From assembly GCA_963965975.1 (NCBI GenBank), contig OZ014417.1, positions 5,127,821 to 5,191,820 on the forward strand: a stretch of 64,000 bases of DNA, read 5' to 3'. Numbering within the stretch: the stretch's first letter is position 1; each line of letters opens with the position of its first letter. The notes below the pieces were generated by a model. It searched no databases. It had not been told where the DNA came from and saw nothing but the letters and a program-made list of their open reading frames with translations. The DNA is from Xestospongia bergquistia (lineage: Eukaryota; Porifera; Demospongiae; Haplosclerida; Petrosiidae). Position numbers and translations under genes: made by a program. Below are positions 1 to 64,000 of the stretch, one piece after another.

Positions 1-555
1 AAAGACTCTAGAAGGTTTAGACTATTGAGAGAAGTTTATAAAGTGAGCTGCTCATTCTAAAGGACTTTATCGCATTAACTAAATAAACAGCTATTAACAG
101 TTAGTAAGTTAGTTTGCATTAACGCTCTAAAGTCTTTAAGTTAATGACTTTAGAAGGTTTAGACTATTGAGAGAAGTTTATAAAGTAAACTGCTCAGTCT
201 AAAGGACTTTATGGCACTAACTAAATAAACAGCTATTAACAGTTTAGTAAGTTAGTTTGCATTAACGGTCTAAAGTCTTTAAGTTAAAGACTTTAGAAGG
301 TTTAGACTATTGAGAGCTTTTTTAAAGTAAACCGCTCAGTCTAAAGGACTTTATGGCACTAACTAAATAAACAGCTATTAACAGTTTAGTAAGGTAGTTT
401 GCATTTACGCTCTAAAGTCTTTAAGTTAAAGACGTTAAAAGGTTTAGACTATTTGAGAGAAGTTTATAAAGTAAACTGCTCAGTCTAAAGGACTTCATGG
501 CACTAACTGAATAAACAGCTATTAACAGTTTAGTAAGTTGGTTTGCATTAACGCT

Positions 556-714
556 CTAAAGTCTTTAAGTTAAAGACTTTAGAAGGTTTAGACTATTGAG
601 AGAAGTTTATAAAGTAAACTGCTCAGTCTAAAGGACTTTATGGCACTAACTAAATAAACAGCTATTAGCAGTTTAGTAAGTTAATTTGCATTAATACTCT
701 AAAGTCTTTAAGTT
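556..714 (+). repeat. Representative satellite monomer with three successive inverted repeats
   Basis: This copy shows the internal structure shared by the array. First, a 27-bp palindrome at 556-582: CTAAAGTCTTTAA, one G, then its exact complement TTAAAGACTTTAG. Second, a nested stem at 587-632: TTTAGACT, ATT, GAG, AGA, AGTTTA, loop TAAAG, then TAAACT, G, CTC, AGTCTAAA. Third, from 645, ACTAACT..AAAC pairs imperfectly (about 14 of 17 in the consensus) with GTTTA..AGTTAGT across a CTATTAA loop. Together they cover roughly 114 of 143 bases. The pairing is seen in the sequence; cruciform or folded-transcript formation is inference. Confidence 0.9.
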
Positions 715-50900: not shown

Positions 50901-51262
50901 TGCTCAGTCTAGAGGACTTTATGGCACTAACTAAATAAACAGCTATTAACAGTTTAGTAACTTAGTTTGCATGAATGCTCTAAAGTCTTTAAGTTAAAGA
51001 CTTTAGAAGGTTTAGACTATTGAGAGAAGTTTATAAAGTAAACTGCTCTGTCTAAAGGACTTTATGGCACTAACTAAATAAACAGCTATTAACATTTTAG
51101 TAAGTTAGTTTTCATTAATGCTCGAAAGTCATTAAATTAAAGACTTTAGTAGTTTTGCACTATTGAGATAAGTTTATAAAGTAAACTGCTCAGTCTAAAG
51201 GACTTTATGGCACTAACTAAATAAACAGCTATTAACAGTTTAGTAAGTTACTTTGCATTAAC

Positions 51263-54200
51263 TCAGTCTAAAGGACTTAATGGGACTAACTAATAAAACT
51301 TCTATTAACAGTTTAGTAACTTTGTTTGCATGATGCTCTAAAGTCTTTAAGTTAAAGACTTTAGAAAGTTTAGACTTTTGAGTGATTTTTATAAAGTAAA
51401 CAGCTCAGTCTAAACGACCTTATGGCACTAACTAAATAAACAGCTATTAATAGTTCAGTAAGTAAGTTTGAATTAACGAACTAAAGTATTTAAGTTGAAG
51501 ACTTTAGAAGGTTTAGACTGTTTAGTGAAGTGTATAAAGTAAACCTCTCAGCCTAAAGGACTTGATGGGACTAACTAAACAAACTGCTACTAACAGTTTA
51601 GTAAGCTATTTTGCATTAACGCTCTAAAGTCTTTTAGTTAAAGACTTTACAAGGTTTAGATAATTGACTGAAGTTTATAAAGTAAAATGCTCAATATAAA
51701 GGGGTTTTTGGCTCTAACTAAGTAAACAGCTATTACAACTTCAGTAAGTTGGTTTGCATTAATGCTCTAAAGTCTTTAAGTTAAAGACTTTAGAAAGTTT
51801 AGACTATTGAATGAATTTTATAAAGTAAACTGCTCAGTCTAAAGGACTTTATGGCACTAAATAAATAAACAGCTATTAACAGTTTAGTAAGTTAATTTGC
51901 ATTAACGCTCTAAAGTCTTTAAGTTAAGGACTTTAGAAGGTTTAGACTATTGAGTGAAGTTTATAAAGTAAACTGCTCTGTATAAAGGTCTTTATGGCAC
52001 TAACTAAGTATACAGCTATTAAAAGTTTAGTAAGTTTGTTTGCATTAACGCTCTAAAGTCTTTAACTTAAAGACTTTAGAAGGTTTAGACAATTGATTGA
52101 AGATTATAAAGTAAACTGCTAAGTGTAAAGGACTTTATGGCACTGACTAAATAAGCTTCTATTAACAGTTTAGTAAGTTTGTTTGCGTTAACGCTCTAAA
52201 GTCTTTAAGTTAAAGAGTTTAGAAGGTTTAGACTATTGGAAGAAGTTTATAAAGTAAACTGCTCAGTCTAAAGGACTTTATGGCACTAACTAAATAAACA
52301 GCTATTAACAGTTTAGTAAGTTTTTTTGCATTAACGCTCTAAAGTCTTTAAGTTAAAGACTTTAGAAGGTTTACACTATTTATTGATGTTGATAGAGTAA
52401 ACTGCACAGTCTAAGGGACTTTATGGCAATAATTAAATAAACAGCTATAACAGTTTAGTAAGTTTTTTTGCATTAACGCTCTGAAGTTTTAAATTAAAGA
52501 CTTTAGAAGGTTTAGACTATTGAGTGAATTTTATAAAGTAAACACTCAGTCTAAAGGTTTTAATGGACTATCTAAGCACACTGCTATTAACAGTTTAGAA
52601 AGTTTGTTTGCATTAACGCTATAAAGTCTTTAAGTTAAAGACTTTAGGAAGTTTAGACTATTGAGTGAATTTTATAAAGTAAACTGCTCAGTCTAAAGGA
52701 CTTAATTGGACTAACTAAACAAACTGCTACTAACAGTTTAGTAAGTGTTTTTGCATTAACGCTCTAAAGTCTTTAAGTTAAACACTTTACAAGGTTTGGC
52801 TATTGACTGAAGTTTATAAAGTAAAATGTTCACTATAAAGGTCTTTATAGCACTAACTGAATAAACAGCTATTAACAGTTTAGTAAGTTGGTTTGCATTA
52901 ACGCTCTAAAGTCTTTAAGTTAAAGACTTTAGAAGGTTTAGACTATTGAGAGAAGTTTATAAAGTAAACTGCTCGGTATAAAGGACTTTATGGCACTAAC
53001 TAAATAAACAGCTATTAAATGTTTAGCAAGTTTGTTTGCATTAACGGTCTAAAGTCTTTAAGTTAAAGACTTTAGAAGGTTTAGACTATTGAGAGAAGTT
53101 TATAAAAAAAACTGCTCAGTCTAAAGGACTTAATGGTACTAAGTTAATAAACTGCTACTAACATTTTAGTAAGTTGGTTTGCATTAACACTCTAAAGTCT
53201 TTAAGTTAAAGACTTTAGAAGGTTTATACTATTGAGTGAAGTTTATAAAGTAAGCTGCTCAGTGTAAAGGACTTAATCGGACTAACTAAAGAAACTGCTA
53301 CTAACAGTTTAGTAAGTTTGTTTGCATTAATGCTCTAAAGTGTTTAAGTTAAAGACTTAAAAAGGTTTAGACTATTGAGTGAATTTTATAAAGTAATCTG
53401 CTCAGTATAAAGGTCTTTATGGCACTAAATAAATAAACAGCTATTAAATGTTTAGTAAGTTTGTTGCATTAACGCTTTAAAGTCTTTAAGTTAAAGACTT
53501 TAGGAGGTTTAGACTTTTGAGTGAAGTTTATAAAGAAAACTGCTCAGTCTAAAGGACTTAATGGGACTAACTATACAAACTGCTACTAACAGTTTAGTAA
53601 GTTGGTTTACATTAACTGTCGAAAGTCTTTAATTGAAAGTCTTTAAAGGTTTAGACTATTGAGTGAATTTTATAAAGTAATTTGCTAAGTCTAACGGACT
53701 TAGTGCAACTAACTAATTAACCTGCAATTAACAGTTTAGTAAGGTGGCTTGCATTAAGGGTCTAAAGTCTTTAATTTAAAGACTTTAGAAGGTTTAGACT
53801 ATTGAGTGAATTTTATGAAGTAAATTGCTCCGTCGAAAGGACTAATAGGACTAACTCATCAAGCTGCTACTAACAGTTTAGTAAGTTGGTTTGCATTAAC
53901 GCTCTAAAGTCTTTAATTTAAAGACTTTAGAAGGTTAAGACTATTGAGGGAATTTTATAAAGTAAACTGTTCAGTCTAAAGGACTTAATGGCACTAAACA
54001 AATAAACTGCAATGAACAGTTTAGTAAATTGGTTTGCATTAACGCTCTAAAACCTTTAATTTAAAGACTTTAGAAGGTGTAGACTATTGAGAGAAGTTTA
54101 TAAAGTAAACTGCTAGGTGTAATGGTGTTAATGGGACTAACTCAAGAAGCTGCTAATAACAGTTCAGTAAGTTGGTTTGTATTAACGCTCTAAAGTCTTT

Positions 54201-54415
54201 CATTTAAAGACTTTAGAATGTTTACACTATTGAGTGAAGTTTATAAAGTAAACTGCTCAGTCCAAAGGACTTAATGGGACTAACTAAATAATCTGCAATT
54301 AACAGTTTAGTAAGTTTGTTTGCATTAACGCTCTAAAGTCTTTAATTTAAAACTTTATAAGGTTTAGACTATTGAGTGAAATTTATAAAGTAAACTGCTC
54401 AGTCTAATGGACTTA
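51263..54415 (+). repeat. Diverged right edge of the satellite array
   Basis: At ~51262 a monomer is cut short: GCATTAA joins straight to CTCAGTCTAAAGG. From here copies differ from each other far more than in the core and carry recurrent edge-type changes, such as CTTAATGGGACTAAC instead of CTTTATGGCACTAAC, AAACTGC instead of AAACAGC, GAGTGAA instead of GAGAGAA, and CTTTAATTTAAAG instead of CTTTAAGTTAAAG. A few core-type copies are mixed in (for example near 52250). The stretch ends where the pogo-type transposon starts. The pattern fits reduced homogenisation at an array edge. Confidence 0.92.
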
Positions 54416-54439
54416 GAGTCGAAAATCAATGGACGGACA
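54414..54439 (+). repeat. Left TA target duplication and left inverted end of the pogo-type element
   Basis: TA at 54414-54415 is followed by an end starting GAGTCG, with TCAATG and CGGACA further in. Compared with the inverted right end it matches at 17 of 24 positions, the differences lying mainly in a 4-base block after GAGTCG. A second CGGACA occurs at 54595-54600. Confidence 0.8.
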
Positions 54440-55661
54440 AATCTATTTTCAGACACTTTTTCTTCTAAAAATTTGAAGATAGCTTATTGCTTCCGTGCTA
54501 TCTAAACTCCGTGTTGTGAACGAGCTCCGTTTTTTTGTGCTTTTACAGACTTGAATGTATTCGCGGGCACGTGGTATGATTTGGCGGACAACACAACCTC
54601 AAGTCTAAACGTTAGCTAGGAGTTTTCTGTCAGTTTCTGAGTCTTTCTCTTTCTATCAACTAAATCTACCTCAAGTTAAACCTTAGGCAGGACTCTCTTG
54701 TATTAACTATCGTGGAAAGAATCAAACATGGTAATTTGTGATAATGTATAGATGTCAATGTGGAAGACTTGATGGCTTGAGCTATGTGTTTGTAATACCT
54801 TAGTCAACCCTGGCCATTTTAGTGATTAGTAAATATATCTGTAATAACAGAGTCAGTTCACTTTTTTAATAATAATAGTGTTGTACTAAGGCTTAATAGC
54901 TGCTTGACTTTATGACTAACTTTACTGTAAGTAGGTAAACATGTGATAGATATTTGATTTATAATAATCTGAGTGAAATAAATTTTTAAATGATAATCAA
55001 TTAACTATATGACAATATTATTGTTTTTAATACCTTTGAGAAAAAAAGATAAAGTCATCACATAAACTAAAATATGTCATAGACCATCTATTATACTATA
55101 GGTATGATGTCATAGTCACAAAAATAGGAGGAAGGGTAGGCAGATAACATGTTAAAGTCACTAGTCATTATTTTGATAGAGAAATGAGTTCTGATGAGTT
55201 GCTTATTCAAAATTCATGATATGATCAAAGGCTCTAAATAATTGCAGTATATAGTTATATCACATGTAGTCATTGGTGCAATGTATAGTCTTTGTTATGA
55301 AGTAGAGAAGAGATGTATACCTTCAAGCATACTAGTAGACATATCTGCCTTACTTATTTGTTTTCATCTGGTCTTATTGAATCTTCAGAATGCAATAGTC
55401 CACTACAGTGAGCTAGAGTCTTTCTATGTTTTATACATAACTAGGAGTCTCTCTACAAAGCTATGACAATTAGTATAAGATTGTGAAAAACCTTTGTACA
55501 AATGACTTATTGCAAACCATAAAGTTTATGTGCTTAATTGGGTGCTGAGACAATTAATTGTTTGAAAACATGCAAGTCCGTTTTTAAGTGCCCCTGACAT
55601 GAGTCTATTTTTCTTTGTTTATATATGATTTATTATGTTATAGTTACATCTTCTTTAATAG
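54440..55661. other. 5' region of the pogo-type element, no convincing long coding exon
   Basis: No conserved protein is seen here. The transposase reading frame must start upstream of an acceptor at ~55661, and one candidate first exon is 54912-54926 (ATG plus four codons) ending at a good donor, GTAAGT at 54927. That exon is in phase with an acceptor AG at 55660-55661. The exon is tiny and its start context is weak, so this is a guess. The 74-codon open frame at 55242-55466 lacks an ATG start and any recognisable domain, and I treat it as chance. Confidence 0.5.
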
Positions 55662-57582
55662 CCTAGGTTATCCTCTGGAGGAAAAAAGCCAAGGAATAGG
55701 CACTACAAGCGGTGGAGTGAGACCCAGTTACGTATAGCAGCAAAGGACGTGGCTAAAGGACAATTTACTCTTAGAAAAGCTGCTGAAATGTATAATGTGC
55801 CAAAGTCAAGATTATGGGACCGAGTGTCTGGTAATGTCTCTTTTGGTGCTCACAGTGGACCCCCTCGATACTTAAATGACGTTGAAGAAGAAGAACTAGT
55901 AACATTTTTGGTAGGTTCAGCTAAAATTGGCTTCGCTCGGACAAAGGAACAAGTTCTTTGTATTGTTAGAGCAGCACTAGCAAAGAAACGTCAATGTGAA
56001 GTTGAAGATGTCAATGTCATTACTGGTTGGTGGGGCTCATTTGTGAAGCGGCATCCAAAACTACGATTAAGATATGGATCCAAATTAGCATATCGTAGAG
56101 CTATTGCAGCTAACCCAGATGTCATAAATCGATATTTTGACTTGCTTGAAGAAACATTGAAGTCTAATAATTTGCTTGAATGACCAATGCTGATTTTTAA
56201 CTGTGATGAGAGCGGGTTCCCATTGGAACATAAACCTGGCAAAATAATTGGAGTACTAGGTCAGAGAGATATTTCCTGTATTACTAGTGGTGATAAAGCC
56301 CAAATTACTGTTTAGTCAGCATGCAGTGCTTCTGGTTACCTTTTGCCTCCGATGATAATTTTTGATCGGAAAAAACTCAAGCCCAATTTCACAAAAGGAG
56401 AAATCTCAGGTACTGCATAAGGGGTGTCTAAAAATGGATGGATAGATTCCGAATTGATTTAGGAATGGTTTACTAATCACTTCTTACTTCACATCCCTCC
56501 ACAGCGACCCATCTTGTTACTCCTGGATGGACATTCTTCACATTACCAACCTCAATTGATCAGGACAGCTGCTGCAAATCAGATCATCTTATTTTGCTTG
56601 CCACCTCATACAACTCATTTGTGTCAACCATTGGACAGGTCATGTTTTAGCCCCTTAAAAAAGGCATACAATAATGAGTGTCATCTCTACATGTCCTGTA
56701 ATCCTGGGAAAGCTGTTAATAGATTTAATTTCACCGAAACGTTTAGTCGAGCCTGGACAAAGGCGATGACACCAGCTAATATTGTTGCTGGGTTTAGATC
56801 CACTGGTATATACCCCCTCAACAGGTATGCAGTATTACGTTACTTGCAACTTGAGGAGGATGGGAAAATAGATATGATAACCTCCAAGATGAGACTGTTT
56901 CTTCCTCTGTATAGCCCAGCTAAATCTCATCCTCATACCTGTATTACTTCCGATAGTGAAAGCATTGATTATAATGAGAAAGACACTTGTAGTGAAGACA
57001 GTACCTGTGGTTACTATGGTAACTTTTCTGAAGACGAAGATTACATTACAAAAGTTCAGCCATCTACTCTTCATGATTTTCTTACTTTACCTCAGCTACC
57101 AAGTAACGAGAAAAAGACAAACCACAGTGCTCGTGTTTTAACAAGTTCTGAAAATCTTCAGTTGATAAGAGAAAAAGAAATGAAGAAAGCAGATGAATTA
57201 AAAGCTTAAGATCTTAGAAAGCAACAGCGAGAAAAGAAGGCAATGGAACGAGAACAGAAAAAGAAGGAGGTAGAGGAGAGAAAGCTTAAAAGAGCAGTTG
57301 AAAAAGCCGAGAAAGAGAGACAAAAGAAAGAAAAAAAACAACGTGAACAGAGTACATCAAAATTTGATTTTACAGAAGAAAGCACAGTCGGTTTTCTAGG
57401 AAGTATGAGAATGGTTATGATCTACCTGACATCAGATATGAAAAATGGAAAAAAATATTCCATCCTGAAGAATTATCTTTAGATGCTACAGCATGTAAAT
57501 CCAGTGATGGAGACATCAGTCTCAGTGAAGTAGATGAGAATAGTAAGTGATACAGCCTGAGGTTAATTATACTTTGAATTTA

Positions 57583-58358
57583 TGGCTTGCTATTTTAGAA
57601 AGTGCACTAGAACAGTCACCAAAAGTTCTCAAATTTCCAGTATGTGTAATGTATATATATATTTTAGTATTTTTGAGTTAATTATCCTTGTTACAGGGAG
57701 GAAGAGATGTACCAGAAGTACTAGCAAGAGAAGTGAAGAAGAGATAGGACTCTATGAATATGACAAGAATGGACTCAGTGATAATGGTATGTGACATTAT
57801 ATTATAATTAACCCTTTAATAGTGGCTTGCCATTTTAGAAACTACACTAGAGCAGTCAAAGACATTACCTAAAAATTCTCAAATTTCCAGTATGTGTAAT
57901 GTATATATATTGAAGTATTTTAAAGTTAATTATCCTTGTTACGGGGAGGAAGAGATGTACCAGAAATACTAGCAAGAGAAGTGAAGAAGAGATAGGACTC
58001 TATGAATATGACAAGAATGGACTCAGTGATAATGGTATGTGACATTATGTTATAATTAACCCTTTAATAGTGGCTTGCCATGTTAGAAACTACACTAGAG
58101 CAGTCAAGGACATTACCTAAAAATTCTCAAATTTCCAGTATGTGTAATGTATATATATTGAAGTATTTTAAAGTTAATTATCCTTGTTACAGGGAGGAAG
58201 AGATGTACCAAAAGTACTAGCAAGAGAAGTTAAAAAAAGATAGGACTCAGTGAATATGACAAGAATGGACTCAGTGATAATGGTATGTGACATTATACTA
58301 TAATTAACCCTTTAATAGTGGCTTGCCATGTTAGAAACTACACTAGAGCAGTCAAAGA
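57583..58358 (+). repeat. Tandem triplication of a ~248-bp unit holding a 90-nt exon
   Basis: Units begin with TGGCTTGC at 57583, 57823, 58071 and 58319 (the last partial, to ~58358); lengths are 240, 248 and 248. Each full unit contains a pyrimidine-rich acceptor region, a 90-nt exon (57697-57786, 57945-58034, 58193-58282) and a GTATGTGAC donor. The exon begins and ends in phase 1, so extra copies would not break the frame. Copy 1 is open and has both splice sites. Copy 2 has ACGG where the others have the ACAG acceptor. Copy 3 has an in-frame TAA at 58231. Only copy 1 therefore looks usable. Confidence 0.9.
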
Positions 58359-58423
58359 ATAACCTGACAACCAGTATGAAAATATTCACAATATAATAAT
58401 ACAATTCATGTATTTCATTACAG

Positions 58424-58578
58424 AAAAACTATCAGCATGTTCTAATAATTTATGTTTTCACACTAAAGCGACTAATTGGGTGGAATGTGAAAAATGTTTC
58501 CAGTGGTACCACATGGTATGTGTTGGGATCAAGAAAGAAAAATCACTAAATTTTGTTTGTTTTATGTGTGACATATAA
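58424..58578 (+). CDS. Terminal exon of the transposase encoding a PHD finger
   Basis: The exon follows a CATTACAG acceptor and reads in phase 1 from the preceding 90-nt exon. It encodes a C4HC3 zinc-binding pattern: Cys-x4-Cys, then WVECEKC, WYHMVC, GIKKEKS and FVCFMC before the stop at 58576. The tryptophan before the third cysteine and the WYH..CVGI string are typical of PHD fingers, which in known families often bind histone H3 tails. The first pair is Cys-x4-Cys rather than the usual Cys-x2-Cys. The exon is intact although the gene upstream is broken. Chromatin targeting of the transposase is my inference. Confidence 0.85.
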
Positions 58579-58641
58579 TAATTAACTACTAGACTTTTTG
58601 TAGTAAAATTATTTTTTCATGCACAGTGAATTTGAATAATT

Positions 58642-58681
58642 AATAAACAGTATTTGTGATTGTCAAATTTGAGTTAATAAA
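58642..58681 (+). promoter_or_regulatory. Two candidate poly(A) signals for the transposase gene
   Basis: AATAAA occurs at 58642-58647 and 58676-58681, 64 and 98 bases after the PHD-exon stop codon. Spacing and strand fit 3' end formation. AATAAA also arises by chance in AT-rich DNA, so usage is unproven. Confidence 0.55.
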
Positions 58682-59083
58682 TATCAAGAACTTATCACCT
58701 ACTTTAGAAAAGAACTTCTCTTAAATGTCCGTTTATTCGTCCATGAGTTCATGTTTTCAAAGAGATGTATATTCAGAACTGTACGTAGAAATTTCTCCAA
58801 AGTTTGACAGTTAATTCTTTACATATTATATACTGTTCAAAAGCAGAGATAACGTTCAAGCTATAATTGTTATCAAGATATGGTCATCGTTCAAATCTAC
58901 ATAAGAATGTCCGTTTTATCATGATCTCAAGTGTACAGGATATATGCTTGTAAATTCTGCAAAAAGATTTCTTTTTCAGTATATTCTTTGCAATAACTAT
59001 ATGATGGATTGGGGCACTCGAAGCTGGTGTCGAAAGTCAGCTTCGAATGCTCTGTTTATTTAAAAACAGTAAAAACACCAGAG
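58682..59083. other. 3' subterminal region of the pogo-type element: repeated TGTCCG motif and a hairpin
   Basis: No coding exon is seen. TGTCCG recurs at 58726 and 58908 (both inside AATGTCCGTTT) and, within the end itself, at 59084; its complement CGGACA is at 54434 and 54595 near the other end. A hairpin is formed by 59014-59025 (GCACTCGAAGCT) and 59039-59050 (AGCTTCGAATGC), 11 of 12 paired across a 13-base loop. These may be transposase-binding or fold-back sites, which is inference. Confidence 0.55.
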
Positions 59084-59109
59084 TGTCCGATCATTGAGCC
59101 ACGCCTCTA
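59084..59109 (-). repeat. Right inverted end and TA target duplication of the pogo-type element
   Basis: Read on the minus strand from 59107, the end begins GAGGCG and carries TCAATG and CGGACA in the same spacing as the left end. TA at 59108-59109 opens the resumed satellite monomer and matches the TA at 54414. Confidence 0.8.
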
Positions 59110-59408
59110 ATGGGACTAACTAAATAAACTGCTATTAACAGTTTAGTAAGTTGGTTTGCATTAAGGGTCTAAAGTCTTTAATTTAAAGACTTTAGAAGGT
59201 TTAGACTATTGAGTGAAGTTTATAAAGTAAACTGCTCAGTCTAAAAGAGTTAACGTTACTAACTAAATAAACTGCAATTAACATTTTAGTAAGTTGGTTT
59301 GAATTAACGCTCTAAAGTCTTTAATTTAAAGACTTTAGAAGGTTTAGACTATTGAGTGAAGTTTATAAAGTAAACTGCTCAGTCTAAAGGATTTAATGGT
59401 ACTAACTA
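59108..59408 (+). repeat. About two edge-type satellite monomers between two transposons
   Basis: The satellite resumes with TAATGGGACTAAC in the same strand and register as before 54415. It carries the edge-type changes (AAACTGC, CTTTAATTTAAAG, GAGTGAAG). It stops at TA 59407-59408, the target of the next element. Confidence 0.95.
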
Positions 59409-59433
59409 TACTCTGTCTGAGTTGAGAAAAGCC
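59409..59433 (+). repeat. Left inverted end of the 794-bp element
   Basis: It starts TACTCTGTCTGAGTTGAG and ends AAAAGCC. It differs from the right end at two positions only (T/C and A/G). Alternatively the element starts at CTCTG with a TATA duplication; the satellite consensus favours TA. Confidence 0.9.
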
Positions 59434-59539
59434 CTTTATTAAAAAAAAGGTGTTTTATGCATGGAATGTAACGTGAGGTATTTTCTCGCCTGTTAGCGCT
59501 GAAGTACGTGTTAAGTGTTTTCATTATTTGTTCACGTGG

Positions 59540-60004
59540 ATGTCATGCGAACACACCACGTTTTTTCTCGTGCTTGTAAGTGGAAAAAGATTGCGATCAC
59601 AAACAAAGGAGGTTGCTGTGAATGTCTATGAATATTTCGAGGAACTTGGCAGGCGCAAACGGACTGAAGGATCTCTGAAACAAACCTGTGATGCCCCAGG
59701 ACTTTCACGTTCCAGTATCAATCTGACAGTTCTGATGACGAATGATTTTAGACATTTTCAGTTTTCCTTATTTGTCAAAAGGTTTTTTTCAAAACCATGT
59801 TGGCTTTATAGCTGCCCAAAATTGCAAAAGACGATACCTGGTTATCATTTTAATAGTATAATTGATACAAAGGCATTTATTTTTATAATTAGAATTGTAA
59901 TTTTGACTTGCCATGTGATAGTCGGCTGGCTTCTCGGTGATAGTTGGCTGACTTTTCGAGGTGAAAATCGATTTTTGTTATCTGCTCGAAGGTGTGCAAT
60001 TTAA
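59540..60004 (+). pseudogene. Remnant transposase N-terminus (helix-turn-helix) inside the 794-bp element
   Basis: The first ATG in this open frame is at 59540. The part worth attention is 59579-59719, which begins SGKRLRSQTKEVAVNVYEYF and ends at GLSRSSI. This resembles the N-terminal helix-turn-helix of Tc1/mariner-IS630-type transposases, in which a KxL..xxKEV..NVY.YF helix is followed by a GVS..T-type recognition helix. After ~59720 the translation loses any recognisable pattern and no Asp-rich catalytic block follows, so the ORF is best read as the stump left after an internal deletion. The assignment is by memory of the pattern only. A donor-like GTAAGT at ~59576 lies just before the conserved part. 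Confidence 0.5.
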
Positions 60005-60177
60005 AGTATGCAAAAGGGATGCCATTTAAAATGTATGGAGTTTTATAGTTTGATACTTTATCGTAGCGCTAGACAGCCAAATTTTATATATAAAATGCGC
60101 GTTTGCAAGCTGAATCGATTGGTGCAAGTCCCATGTGGATAGCACGTAAAACGGCAAAGTTATTCACACGTCTGGGT

Positions 60178-60202
60178 GGCTTCTCTCAACTCGGACAGAG
60201 TA
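60178..60202 (-). repeat. Right inverted end of the 794-bp element
   Basis: On the minus strand it reads TACTCTGTCCGAGTTGAG then AGAAGCC, pairing with the left end. It is followed by TA at 60203-60204 and normal satellite. Confidence 0.9.
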
Positions 60203-60354
60203 TAAATAAACTGCTATTAACAGTTTAGTAAGTTTGTTTGTGTTAACGCTCTGAAGTCTTTAATTTAAAGACTTTAGAAGGTTTAGACTGTTGATTGAAG
60301 TTTATAAAGTAAATTGCTAAGTCTAAAAGACTTGAAGGGAATAAATATATAAAG
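60203..60354 (+). repeat. One edge-type satellite monomer in forward orientation
   Basis: Satellite continues in register after the 794-bp element, with edge-type changes (AAACTGCTATTAACAGTTT, CTTTAATTTAAAG, GATTGAAG). It ends in an irregular stretch (GGGAATAAATATATAAAGGG) at the strand switch. Confidence 0.93.
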
Positions 60355-62110
60355 GGACTATTGGGTGTACTTTTTAAAGTAGTCTAAACCTTCTAAAGTC
60401 TTTAAATTAAAGACTTTAGAGCGTTAATGGAAAGAAACTTAATAAACTGTTAATGGCAGTTTATTTAGTTAGTCCCTTTCAGTCCTTTAGTCTGAGCAGT
60501 TTACTTTATAAAGTTAACTCTACAGTCTCAACATTCTAAAGTCATTGAATTAAAAACTTTAGAACGTTAATGAAACAAAGTTAATAAGCTTTTAATGGCA
60601 GTTTATTTACTTAGTCCCTTTAAGTCCCTTAGTCTATGCAGTTTATTTTATAAACTAAACTCAATGGTTGAAACCTTATAAAGTCTTTAAATTAAAGACT
60701 TTAGAGCGTTAATGCAAACAAACTTAATAAACTGTACACACCAACTTAGTAAACTGTTAAATGTAGCTTATTTAGTTGGTCCCTTTAAGTCCTTTAGTCT
60801 GAACAGATTACTTTAGAAAGTTCACTCAATAGTCTAAACCTTCTAAAGTTTTTAAATTAAAGACTTTAGTGCTTTAATACAAACCAACTTAATAAACCGT
60901 TAATTGATGTTTATTTAGTTAGTCCATTTAAGTCCTTTAGTCTGATCAGTTTCCTTTTTAAAGTACATCCAATAGTCTAAACCTTCTAAAGTCTTTAAAT
61001 TAAAGACTTAAAGCGTTAATGCAAACAAACTTAATAAACTGTTAATGGTAGTTTATTTAGTTAGTCGTTTTAAGGCCTTTAGTCTCAGCAGTTTATTTTA
61101 TAACCTTAAGTCAATAGTCTAAACTTCTAAAGTCTTTAAATTAAAGACATTAGAGCGTTATTGGAAACAAACTTGATAAAATGTTAATTCCAGTTTATTT
61201 AGTTAGTCCCTTTAAGTCTTTTATTTTGAGCAGTTTACTTTATAAAATTCACTCAATAATCTAAACCTTCTAAAGTCTTTAAATTAAAGACTTTAGAGCA
61301 TTAATGCAAACAAACTTAATAAACTGTTAATGGCAGTTTATTTAGTTAGTCGGTTTAAGTCCTTTAGTCTTTGCAGTTTACTTAATAAACTGAAATCAAC
61401 AGCCTAACCCTCTTAAAGTCTTTAAATTAAAGACTTGAATGTTTTAATACACACCAACTTAGTAAACAATTAATTGCAGCTTATTTGGTTGGTCCCTTTA
61501 ACTCCTTTAGTCTGAACAGATTACTTTAGAAAGTTCACTCAATAGTCTAAACCTTCTAAAGTCTTTGAATTAAAGACTTTAGAGCATTAATGCAAACAAA
61601 CTCGACAAACTGTTAATGGCAATTTACTTAGTTAGTCCCTTTAAGTCCTTCAGTCTGAGCAGTTTACTTTTTAAAATTTACTCCACAGTCTAAACCTTCT
61701 AAAGTCTTTAATTTAAAGATTTAAAATTGTTATTGCAAACAAACTTAATAAACTGTTAATGGCAGTTTACTTAGCTAGTCCCTTTAAGTCCTTTAGTCTG
61801 AGCAGTTTACTATTTGAAATTTACTCAACAGTCTAAACCTTCTGAAGTCTTTAAATTAAAGACTTAGACTGTTAATGCAAACAAAGTTAATAAGCTGTTA
61901 ATGGCAGTTTATTTACTTAGTCCCTTTAAGTCCCTTAGTCTCAGCAGTTTATTTTATAAACTAAACTCAATAGTCTAAACCTTCTAAAGTCTTTAAATTA
62001 AAGACTTTAGAGCATTAATGCGAAGAAACTAAATATATTGTTAATGGCAGTTTATTTATTTAGTCCCTTTAAGTCCTTTAGTCCTAGCAATTTACTTTAT
62101 AAAGTTAACT
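60355..62110 (-). repeat. Inverted segment of the satellite array, about 12 monomers
   Basis: The same monomer is read on the minus strand: AGTCTAAACCTTCTAAAG, CTTTAAATTAAAG, GCGTTAATGCAAAC, CTTAATAAACTGTTAATG, TTTATTTAGTTAGTCCC, AAGTCCTTTAGTCTGAGC. The period is roughly 135-160 with small indels. The switch is at ~60355-60385, where a forward GACTATTGGGTGTAC fragment abuts inverted GTCTAAACCTTC. These copies are edge-type and diverged from each other. Inversion of one array end, or inverted duplication, would give this layout. Confidence 0.93.
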
Positions 62111-62340
62111 CAATAAAATGCAAAGTGCTTAGACTAAAGGACTTAATAAACTGCAATTGACTGTTTATTAAGTTCATTTCCATTAAATCTTGAAACTCTT
62201 TAATTTAAAGGATTGTTAGGGTTTACAGTATTTTGGTAAACTTAACAATGCGAACTACTTACACTAATGGGTTTATACTTACCACTGCAAACTATTTGCA
62301 ATAAAGGCTTAAAGACATTTAGTCTATTAACTGGAATAGA
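62111..62340 (+). repeat. Degenerate outermost satellite copies, forward strand again
   Basis: Weak forward-strand similarity is visible: CTTAGACTAAAGGACTTAAT, AAACTGCAATTGACTGTTTA, TTAAGTTCATTTCCATTAAA and CTTTAATTTAAAGGATTG, followed by vaguer echoes (TAAGGCTTAAAGACATTTAG style). Beyond ~62340 the similarity is lost. I read this as the decayed outer limit of the array. Confidence 0.65.
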
Positions 62341-62369
62341 GTCTTCTATTGCTAAAATGTATATTTTAA

Positions 62370-62640
62370 TATGTATATTTTTTGTGGAAATTGCAGTTTT
62401 TTAAAAACTTTTTTCTATGTTTTTGGTGCCAAAATATACAAGTCCTAATTTTTTTTGTGCCAAAAATATGTGTTTTAACCCTTGTTTAAAACTTTTTTGG
62501 CAGCAAAATGTGTCAGTTGTCACAGCCTCTTTAAAAAGCATTTTAGTGCGAAAATTGCACATGTTTTAAATCCTTTTGCTAATTTTTTTAGGTGCCCAAA
62601 ATGCCGATATTTGAAAACCCATTTTGCTAAAAAAAGGAAC
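62370..62640. repeat. Degenerate ~46-bp minisatellite
   Basis: A motif like TTTTGGTGCCAAAAT recurs with starts near 62379, 62425, 62456, 62499, 62545 and 62591, mostly 43-46 bases apart with one shortened copy (31). Copies share a T run, G(G/T)(T/C)GCC, AAAAT and then an A/T-rich tail with TTTAAA. Divergence is high. No relation to the 143-bp satellite is evident. Confidence 0.6.
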
Positions 62641-62829
62641 AGGTATTAATGTGAACCCTTTAACGGGTGGTTGCGTAATTATGAGCAGGCGGATGCAATT
62701 ATTGAGTGGGTGGAATCGCAATTTTGCACAGTAACTATTACCGAGGCACCTGGACTGTTTTTCGAAAGCAAGAACGTGAATATGATTGCAATCACTGGTT
62801 TGTAAAGCTATCAACATGGCTAAAGCGTC

Positions 62830-63117
62830 ATGGCATTGACAAGCAGAAGGTTTATACAGTTGCCTTCTGACCCAGACCTCCTTTTACAGTGTATTGATGG
62901 TGCTGAAAGTGACTATTCAGACAGTGATTTCTACAGCTACATTGATGAAGAAGAAGCACTGACAGATCTTTTGCAAAGCCATTTACTAGCAAGGCTGACT
63001 TCTGAAAGCTTTGTACTAAAATGTAACTCTTCAGCTCCACCTTTACCAACAAGAAGCAGTTTCCTAGCTCCACCTACACCCACGGATAAGATGATTTTAC
63101 ACACATGTACAAAATAA
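62830..63117 (+). pseudogene. Putative N-terminal part of a piggyBac-type transposase
   Basis: A 95-codon open frame starts at ATG 62830. It has an acidic, Ser/Asp-rich section (ESDYSDSDFYSYIDEEEA, about residues 26-43) and a Ser/Pro-rich tail. piggyBac transposases commonly begin with an acidic, poorly conserved region like this, and the remnants downstream in the same strand support the link. A second open stretch, 63138-63215, is a Ser/Thr/Ala-rich low-complexity linker (ATSPATALPSTSTTATAS) that fits the usual disordered part before the folded domain. On its own the ORF carries no diagnostic domain. Shorter open frames on the minus strand here look like shadows. Confidence 0.5.
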
Positions 63118-63302
63118 TAATAATTATTGTAGTTCATCCATTGGTTGCCACCTCTCCAGCAACAGCTTTGCCCAGTACTAGCACTACTGCTACAGCTAGC
63201 CTACCTATAGTTAACTAAAGACTACCAATAATAGCAAAGTAACTTTATAGTTCATCCATTTACTGCATCACCTGGGCTTACTCTTGATATAACCAAAAAC
63301 CA

Positions 63303-63531
63303 CCACTTGCTTTCTTCAATCTATACTTTTCATCAGCAGTAAAAGATTTGATCTTTGTGGAAACAGCTACCTATCCTGTGTCAAATTGAATCTTACATGC
63401 ATAATCATCCCAATGCTCTTAGTCATGACTGGAGTAGAAATCTGATAAAGCATGAGGAAGTTGACCCATTACTAGCCATAATAATTACAAAGGGACTAGT
63501 TAGATATCTGTCTGTGAGGTATTCATTATAA
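63303..63531 (+). pseudogene. piggyBac-type transposase fragment, dimerisation/N-terminal folded domain
   Basis: Two frames continue each other. The first, 63303-63389, reads PLAFFNLYFSSAVKDLIFVE then TATYP, matching the family pattern P..FF.LFF....I..IV.ETN.YA. The second, reading on from 63394 to a stop at 63529, contains KHEEVDPLLAIIITKGLVRY then LSVRYSL, matching the family pattern of an Elkaf.gi.i.mG segment followed by P.I.dYWs. The one-base frame change between 63380 and 63394 shows decay. Both patterns are recalled from the family; no alignment was run. Confidence 0.75.
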
Positions 63532-63729
63532 CCAAGGAAATAGATTGATATGAATTGCAAGTTTTATTTATTACACTTACTTGTAATTGTAATTTTATTA
63601 GGAAGCCCTAAAAATTTGTGAATTTCCTGTACAACTTACTTATTTGTAGATGATACTGGAGCAGCAAATGGTCATTTCATAGTGATATAGTCAGTCATAT
63701 CATGCAGAAGGTTTGAATTATTGATGAAA

Positions 63730-64000
63730 TCTTGATCAGCTTAACGAGTCATTCTAGTTGGTTTATATTCCCAATAGAGAAATTGCTGTTGATGAGAGTA
63801 TCATTGGACACAAAGGAGGACTCTCGTGGTTCTAGTACATGCTCAAGAAGCCCACTAAATGGGATATTATACTTACTATAATGGTTGTTAATGAGCCATA
63901 CAGGAAAAGAGAAGATGGTGTCCCTGAGCAAGGGCTAGCGTACAAAGTGATCTCATGTCTCCTTTATCAATAAGTGGATATCATGTGTGTACCAATATAC
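63730..64000 (+). pseudogene. piggyBac-type transposase fragment, start of the DDE catalytic domain
   Basis: From 63764 the frame reads YIPNREIAVDESIIGHKGGL then SWF, a TAG stop at 63833, and YMLKKPTKWDIILT. This matches the piggyBac catalytic signature (vDESm..fkGR.s..QYmp.KPtkWGiK), with the first catalytic Asp at 63791-63793. A later part (GLAYKVISCLLYQ) resembles the block before the second Asp; a TAA at 63971 follows, and a shifted frame gives SGYHVCTNIY, like the family's YHVYVDNFYT, with the expected Asp not present. Stops at 63755, 63833 and 63971 make this a pseudogene. It runs to the window end. Confidence 0.85.

Follow-up and report, generated by a model that had tools for sequence, protein, structure and literature searches.

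A dyad-rich satellite with three hairpins per monomer, a candidate for centromere DNA on every chromosome of the sponge Xestospongia bergquistia

Introduction

In human alpha satellite, younger and homogeneous stretches are flanked by older sequence that carries transposons, and its types are characteristic of groups of chromosomes. Other centromeres are rich in dyad symmetry, and it has been proposed that these form cruciforms, which a centromeric-histone chaperone may recognise (see the relevant parts of PMC9070824 and PMC8997354). Here, we report a satellite from the sponge Xestospongia bergquistia, analysed in a window of 64,000 nucleotides (the whole stretch of DNA under study, C7:5127821-5191820) and traced through the genome assembly. 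Like the dyad-symmetry-rich centromeres of Kasinathan and Henikoff (as cited in PMC9070824 and PMC8997354), it is AT-rich and enriched in inverted repeats, for which hairpins or cruciforms are predicted. The dyads of those centromeres are shorter than 10 bp as given in the parts of PMC9070824 and PMC8997354 that treat them, whereas the arms of the sponge satellite reach 14 bp when perfect and 15-17 bp when nested; the satellite also differs from what those parts describe in being known from sequence alone and in having a sponge as its host.

The closest published parallel that we found is the pair of Tribolium madens satellites TmSat1 and TmSat2, which have macro-dyad symmetries and whose dyads are found on more than one scale (PMC13081366, in the sections describing them). 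Common to these and to the sponge satellite are a putative (peri)centromeric position, occurrence on all chromosomes, dyads and inverted segments. Compared with the description in those sections of PMC13081366, several blocks in the sponge run mainly one way, the inversion in the window measures only about 1.7 kb, and the satellite alternates with a shared spacer that carries transposons. The layering of young and old arrays and the presence of chromosome-group types are shared with human alpha satellite (part of PMC8997354 gives some context). Unlike alpha satellite, the window has no CENP-B box within one mismatch (0 sites, against 0.39 expected) and no clear higher-order repeat, and the large unit of the sponge is made of satellite plus spacer. 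The literature matches listed are general papers on centromeres and satellites, or unrelated by their titles, with no study of a sponge centromere or satellite among them; a literature search on large centromere units gave no lead, and none of the terms on sponges or inverted repeats looked for in PMC4053949 is present there.

Results and Discussion

Monomer structure and layout of the window

The satellite unit is 143 bp long and AT-rich (30% GC), and it forms the long head-to-tail arrays of a fixed-length unit that define satellite DNA. With Tandem Repeats Finder, 357.9 copies at period 143 were found over positions 1-51262 (89% matches) and 22.1 copies over 51262-54414 (85% matches), with short arrays beyond, and BLAST with the consensus recovered 388 near-full monomers there, of which 377 are forward and 11 reverse. 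The preliminary description had spoken of hundreds of units and of more than a thousand potential cruciforms, and both estimates agree with this count (388 x 3 in the window). Within the main array (1-54414, forward strand), identity to the consensus is 95-97% per 4-kb bin up to about 51-52 kb and about 90% (90.5%) thereafter. A fixed multimer was rejected for the window, the best lag identity being 0.937 against a baseline of 0.933.

Adjacent inverted repeats of 27, 46 and 41 bp occupy 114 of the 143 bases of the monomer. These three successive repeats had been pointed out in one copy (553-695, forward strand, in consensus phase GCTCTAAAG...), and we could read all of them there. Hairpin 1 (555-583, forward strand) has perfect 14-bp arms around one central base; its 27-bp core at 556-582 is a perfect odd palindrome with 13-bp arms (14-bp when 555 and 583 are counted). 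Hairpin 2 (587-632, forward strand) is a nested stem of 8+3+6 bp in which TTTAGACT/GAG/AGTTTA pairs with TAAACT/CTC/AGTCTAAA. Hairpin 3 (645-685, forward strand) is an imperfect stem that extends further in the C9 consensus, which is of the older type. The structures are retained in most copies, as had also been claimed: at least 80% of the pairs are intact in 825, 803 and 769 of 934 distinct monomers for hairpins 1, 2 and 3, respectively (with the older-type pairing used for hairpin 3). Descent of one hairpin from another was rejected, since scores equal to theirs or better are reached by 315, 878 and 232 of 1000 shuffles. Searches of the window and five loci against Rfam gave no match at the gathering score, a tRNA search returned none, and the palindrome pattern had no site in prokaryote and viral collections.

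The main array is followed on its right by a pogo/Tigger-like DNA transposon insertion (54415-59109, forward strand). Matches to HTH_psq, DDE_1 and PHD each fall in an open stretch of their own, three in all, and as judged by eye the insertion has imperfect terminal inverted repeats and a TA duplication. Inside this transposon, 57621-58365 comprises three copies of a 248-bp unit, each with an exon-like stretch flanked by splice-like sites (by eye), and the right end of the element has an identical copy 129 kb upstream on C7. Older-type satellite monomers follow (59110-59408, forward strand), then a short insertion of about 0.8 kb (59409-60202, no strand assigned) that by eye has matching inverted ends and a TA duplication, and whose longest frame has no Pfam match. 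Beyond it are diverged satellite (60203-60353, forward strand), an inverted satellite segment (60380-62115, reverse strand) with about 85% (84.7%) identity to the consensus, and satellite relics (62116-62340, forward strand) recognised by eye, in which BLAST finds one 46-bp stretch at 80%. The window closes with the start of the non-satellite spacer of a large repeat unit (62340-64000, forward strand).

One satellite block on each chromosome

The assembly comprises 146.46 Mb in 21 contigs, fifteen of which are of chromosome size, from 28.2 (28.17) to 5.4 Mb; C21 (18,997 bp) looks mitochondrial, its mitochondrial genes having been recognised by eye. A 30-mer of the monomer, with up to two mismatches, has 26,607 sites in the genome (16,337 forward and 10,270 reverse), and its reversed sequence, used as a control, has none. 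Rarer monomer variants served as patterns to reach further chromosomes. The sites considered were complete for patterns with 1, 89, 10, 69 and 38 sites and numbered about 100 of 131, of 112 and of 26,607 for the others. Direct sampling covered C1, C2, C3, C8, C9, C12 and C14.

Among the matches listed and the samples, the satellite is present on 15 of 15 chromosome-size contigs in one internal cluster each, the pattern of one major block per chromosome that characterises centromeric satellites. Block centres lie at 0.36-0.76 of chromosome length. Spans, with spacers counted in, are 455-961 kb on 11 chromosomes, and on C1, C2, C3 and C8 satellite extends over at least about 124-155 kb from the first to the last sample. 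On C14, sampled at 20 places, satellite was found at three neighbouring ones. Ten of 20 further small samples contained it, namely both on C9 and eight on C1, C2, C3 and C8; those eight were taken on the right side of the first site known on each chromosome, and the ten taken on its left side are without satellite. One sample within the C6 block (L035) consists of spacer without satellite. Blocks on C2, C3, C8, C9 and C12 hold satellite in both orientations, and those on C4-C7, C10, C11, C13 and C15 mainly in one.

Because one large block occurs on each of the 15 chromosomes, the satellite is most likely centromere DNA. From its sequence and distribution we consider it very probable that it is a dyad-rich (peri)centromeric satellite, although the single block per chromosome may represent pericentromeric heterochromatin only.

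Large repeat units of satellite and spacer

The spacer at 62340-64000 gave 41 matches, corresponding to at least 40 copies (one is split in two, and the window's own is counted); 40 of 82 candidates were scored, so that this is a lower bound. The copies number at least one on C4, five on C5, seven on C6, four each on C7, C10 and C11, and five each on C13, C14 and C15. The spacer is thus shared by nine chromosomes, on which it recurs together with the satellite. All scored copies have the main block orientation and lie within or adjoining blocks, the outermost on C11, C13 and C15 being about 9-78 kb past the last satellite site listed. Spacing is mostly about 109-225 kb, with one 65-kb interval on C6. 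Identity is 100% on C7, 96-97% on C14 and 98-99% elsewhere. The neighbouring part of the unit is also repeated: C7:5057201-5059700 equals window positions 58562-61061 with 100% identity over 2,500 bp, and counterparts on C5 and C6 are 98.6% and 98.4% identical over about 2 kb. A spacer stretch on C6 and the C7 spacer past the window share 96.8-98.9% over several kb. Given these shared copies and identities, satellite and spacer appear to have spread together, both within and between chromosomes.

The spacer carries DDE_Tnp_1_7 matches, which we take to be piggyBac. On C7, past the window, DDE_Tnp_1_7 transposase matches lie in two adjoining open stretches of the shared spacer (L043:2593-4047). 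Elsewhere in the spacer of a centromere-like block, a degenerate GGTTTAG/TTTAGGG short tandem repeat is telomere-like (L042:3704-3885). Exact variant monomers on C7 recur, among the matches listed, at an offset of about 126.3-126.5 kb, and this fixed offset suggests that segments within the block were duplicated recently.

Young and old monomer types

We compared the consensuses of 16 groups, comprising 916 monomers (728 from young arrays and 188 from old arrays). Seven groups from C4, C5, C7, C10 and C11 form a young type A, whose monomers differ by 3.7-5.4% from their own consensus, and exact type-A patterns match C6, C13 and C15 too. An older type, at 7.4-10.9%, is found on C1, C2, C3, C8 and C9, at the right end of the window array and in the inverted segment. 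C12 and C14 have a variant type (6.2-6.6%).

An exact 47-mer of the older type has 38 sites, 21 of them, as we read their positions, near block ends on C4, C5, C7, C10, C11 and C12 (some of the older-type sites themselves define the block ends on C5, C10 and C12). Six sites on C6 and five on C14 occur once per large unit, and the remaining six are near the right end of C14 (three) and on C1, C8 and C9 (one each). On chromosomes of the young type, older-type monomers lie near block ends and at junctions of satellite and spacer. This layering of old and young resembles that of growing centromere arrays, with the older type presumably ancestral.

Folding and inverted-repeat density

The preliminary description had proposed a comparison of the folded consensus with dinucleotide-shuffled controls. 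The consensus folds far better than these (z -5.2 as DNA): its energy as DNA is -26.5 kcal/mol, against -12.8 (sd 2.64) for shuffled sequences (z -5.19; 0 of 200 as low), and as RNA it is -39.1 (z -3.26), with one of 200 shuffles as low. With 500 shuffles the values are z -5.29 for DNA (0/500) and z -3.58 for RNA (2/500). DNA and RNA have the same kind of minimum-energy structure, three side-by-side hairpins. Strong folding extends to eight group consensuses, with z from -4.81 to -7.41 as DNA (0 of 500 shuffles as low for each) and from -3.58 to -6.11 as RNA (0-2 of 500). The DNA energy of type A (-26.5) is weaker than those of C9 (-29.1), the array right end (-28.3) and C1 (-26.8), and stronger than those of C2 (-25.9), C12 and C14 (-24.4 each) and the inverted segment (-23.7). 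Its RNA z is the weakest of the eight.

The longest exact inverted-repeat arm is 14; among the 200 shuffles made of each consensus, it never exceeds 10-11. Arms of at least 10 take up 8-14% of bases in seven of seven satellite samples; the share is 0-2.1% in four samples of spacer and, on average, 0.5% (maximum 3%) in 17 satellite-free samples of C14. Relative to this C14 background, the satellite has the inverted-repeat density of dyad-rich centromere DNA.

Origin and possible function of the hairpins

There is about an even chance that this is an ordinary (peri)centromeric satellite whose hairpins are a functionless by-product of its founding sequence. We examined variation per site, stratified by base, in eight tests. 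In young arrays (728 monomers) the stems vary as much as the rest of the monomer (p 0.635; hairpins 1-3, p 0.279, 0.771 and 0.624), as a by-product would, and the one-sidedness of fixed changes and the lack of a compensatory excess by events, both described below, favour the same reading. Old arrays (188 monomers) fit it less well: variation in hairpin 1 is 0.053 against 0.085 elsewhere (p 0.003, or about 0.02 after Bonferroni correction), with p 0.357 for hairpin 2, 0.680 for hairpin 3 and 0.033 for all stems. Long dyads, a unit of near-nucleosome length and presence on every chromosome, moreover, are what the dyad-symmetry hypothesis predicts.

A possible but rather unlikely reading is that hairpin 1 is a sequence-specific palindromic site for a putative homodimer, with hairpins 2 and 3 passive. 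Fixed differences among the 16 group consensuses fall at 16 positions, none of them in the hairpin 1 arms. In favour of this reading, its 28 arm positions are identical in 16 of 16 consensuses (seven of which are the same young type), while its central base has three states, and in the old arrays hairpin 1 is the least variable of the elements compared. Against this, its variation is no lower in young arrays, and the stretch right after it, up to position 48, is likewise unchanged between groups.

That selection maintains the three-hairpin structure, as cruciform or RNA hairpin, while the sequence drifts is improbable in our view. The strong folds in eight of eight group consensuses are consistent with it, as are the lower variation of all stems in old arrays and a stem pair gained at position 131 in type A, though this type lost others. 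Against it, positions 53, 68, 75 and 108 each carry a change that disrupts one stem pair in part of the groups. These single-sided breaks are fixed between groups, and no two-sided swap is present among the fixed differences.

Covariation was evaluated at 52 pairs in 934 distinct rows of 1,048 monomers (114 duplicates dropped). By cells, 73 of 172 doubles are complementary against 47.5 expected, a value reached in 0 of 1000 permutations, and for hairpin 2 complementary states make up 24 of the 38 double cells of the young set, with 18.9 doubles expected; both would speak for selection on structure. When each double state is counted once, the excess is gone, as clonal amplification predicts: 34 of 89 double types are complementary, the permutation mean being 34.1, and 553 of 1000 permutations reach as many. 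Within a single stretch of the window, seven monomers share one double, and the gap between types and cells is as expected if a few doubles were amplified.

A separate covariation tool was applied to 106 rows, mostly old, which include three out-of-phase window rows; 26 of 129 old monomers had been dropped by hand as length variants or for thinning. Here 87.3% of positions are paired against 87.1% (83/500), changes on both sides affect 17 pairs against 12.7 (31/500), and the covariation score is 0.048 against 0.046 (66/500), above every slid version of the structure (0.020-0.034). These differences lean toward selection, but relatedness also exceeds the tool's shuffles, and a consensus-derived structure also exceeds its slid versions, both without selection. 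A compensatory excess is therefore absent by distinct types, and the weak excess by cells and in the separate tool is obtainable from relatedness.

The preliminary description had suggested selection for structure rather than sequence, and had named independent variation of stem positions and folding no better than shuffled sequence as evidence to the contrary. The double types and the one-sided fixed changes do not bear its suggestion out; the stems do vary independently, while folding is far better than in shuffled sequence. The three-hairpin structure looks inherited rather than maintained by compensatory changes, and it is largely intact; in the old arrays only, there is a hint that hairpin 1 is constrained. 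Since there is neither a compensatory excess nor lower stem variation in young arrays, a function of the hairpins is a candidate only.

The origin first suggested, from a fold-back or MITE-like transposon, is highly improbable, for although the inverted repeats are dense and DNA transposons are present in the window, the sites listed form one cluster per chromosome with no dispersed copy among the matches (the patterns being satellite-like and such as would miss diverged relatives), and the three hairpins are not significantly alike. Likeness of the monomer to the ends of the two window insertions was judged by eye.

Proposed mechanism and significance

As a (peri)centromeric satellite, its blocks would be the sites where centromeric chromatin forms, with dyad-bearing units of near-nucleosome length providing an AT-rich, easily melted template, and with blocks that enlarge through unequal exchange and the duplication of large segments. 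Less certainly, the hairpins would already have been present in the ancestral monomer and have spread by amplification; while the DNA is replicated or transcribed, they might extrude into cruciforms or hairpins and help to load the centromeric histone, a role put forward for dyad-rich centromeres of other organisms. Hairpin 1 may instead, or additionally, be a palindrome to which a dimeric protein binds. We infer the step from dyads to function, and the data would fit extrusion or none. A search for the Scm3 domain had no match here, nor in any of 14 controls. It is conceivable, if unlikely, that hairpin 1, a 29-bp palindrome found every 143 bp in a block of every chromosome, is a conserved recognition element by which, as cruciform or dimer site, centromeric chromatin is directed, and that it is copied between chromosomes within array-plus-spacer units of mostly 110-225 kb.

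The dyad-symmetry idea can be put to a sharper test when each double change is counted once and when old and young parts of one genome are compared, as here. Sponges are far from the vertebrates, flies and yeasts in which the idea has mostly been tested, and the arms in this satellite are longer than those reported there. The satellite is thus a candidate centromere DNA for all chromosomes of a sponge.
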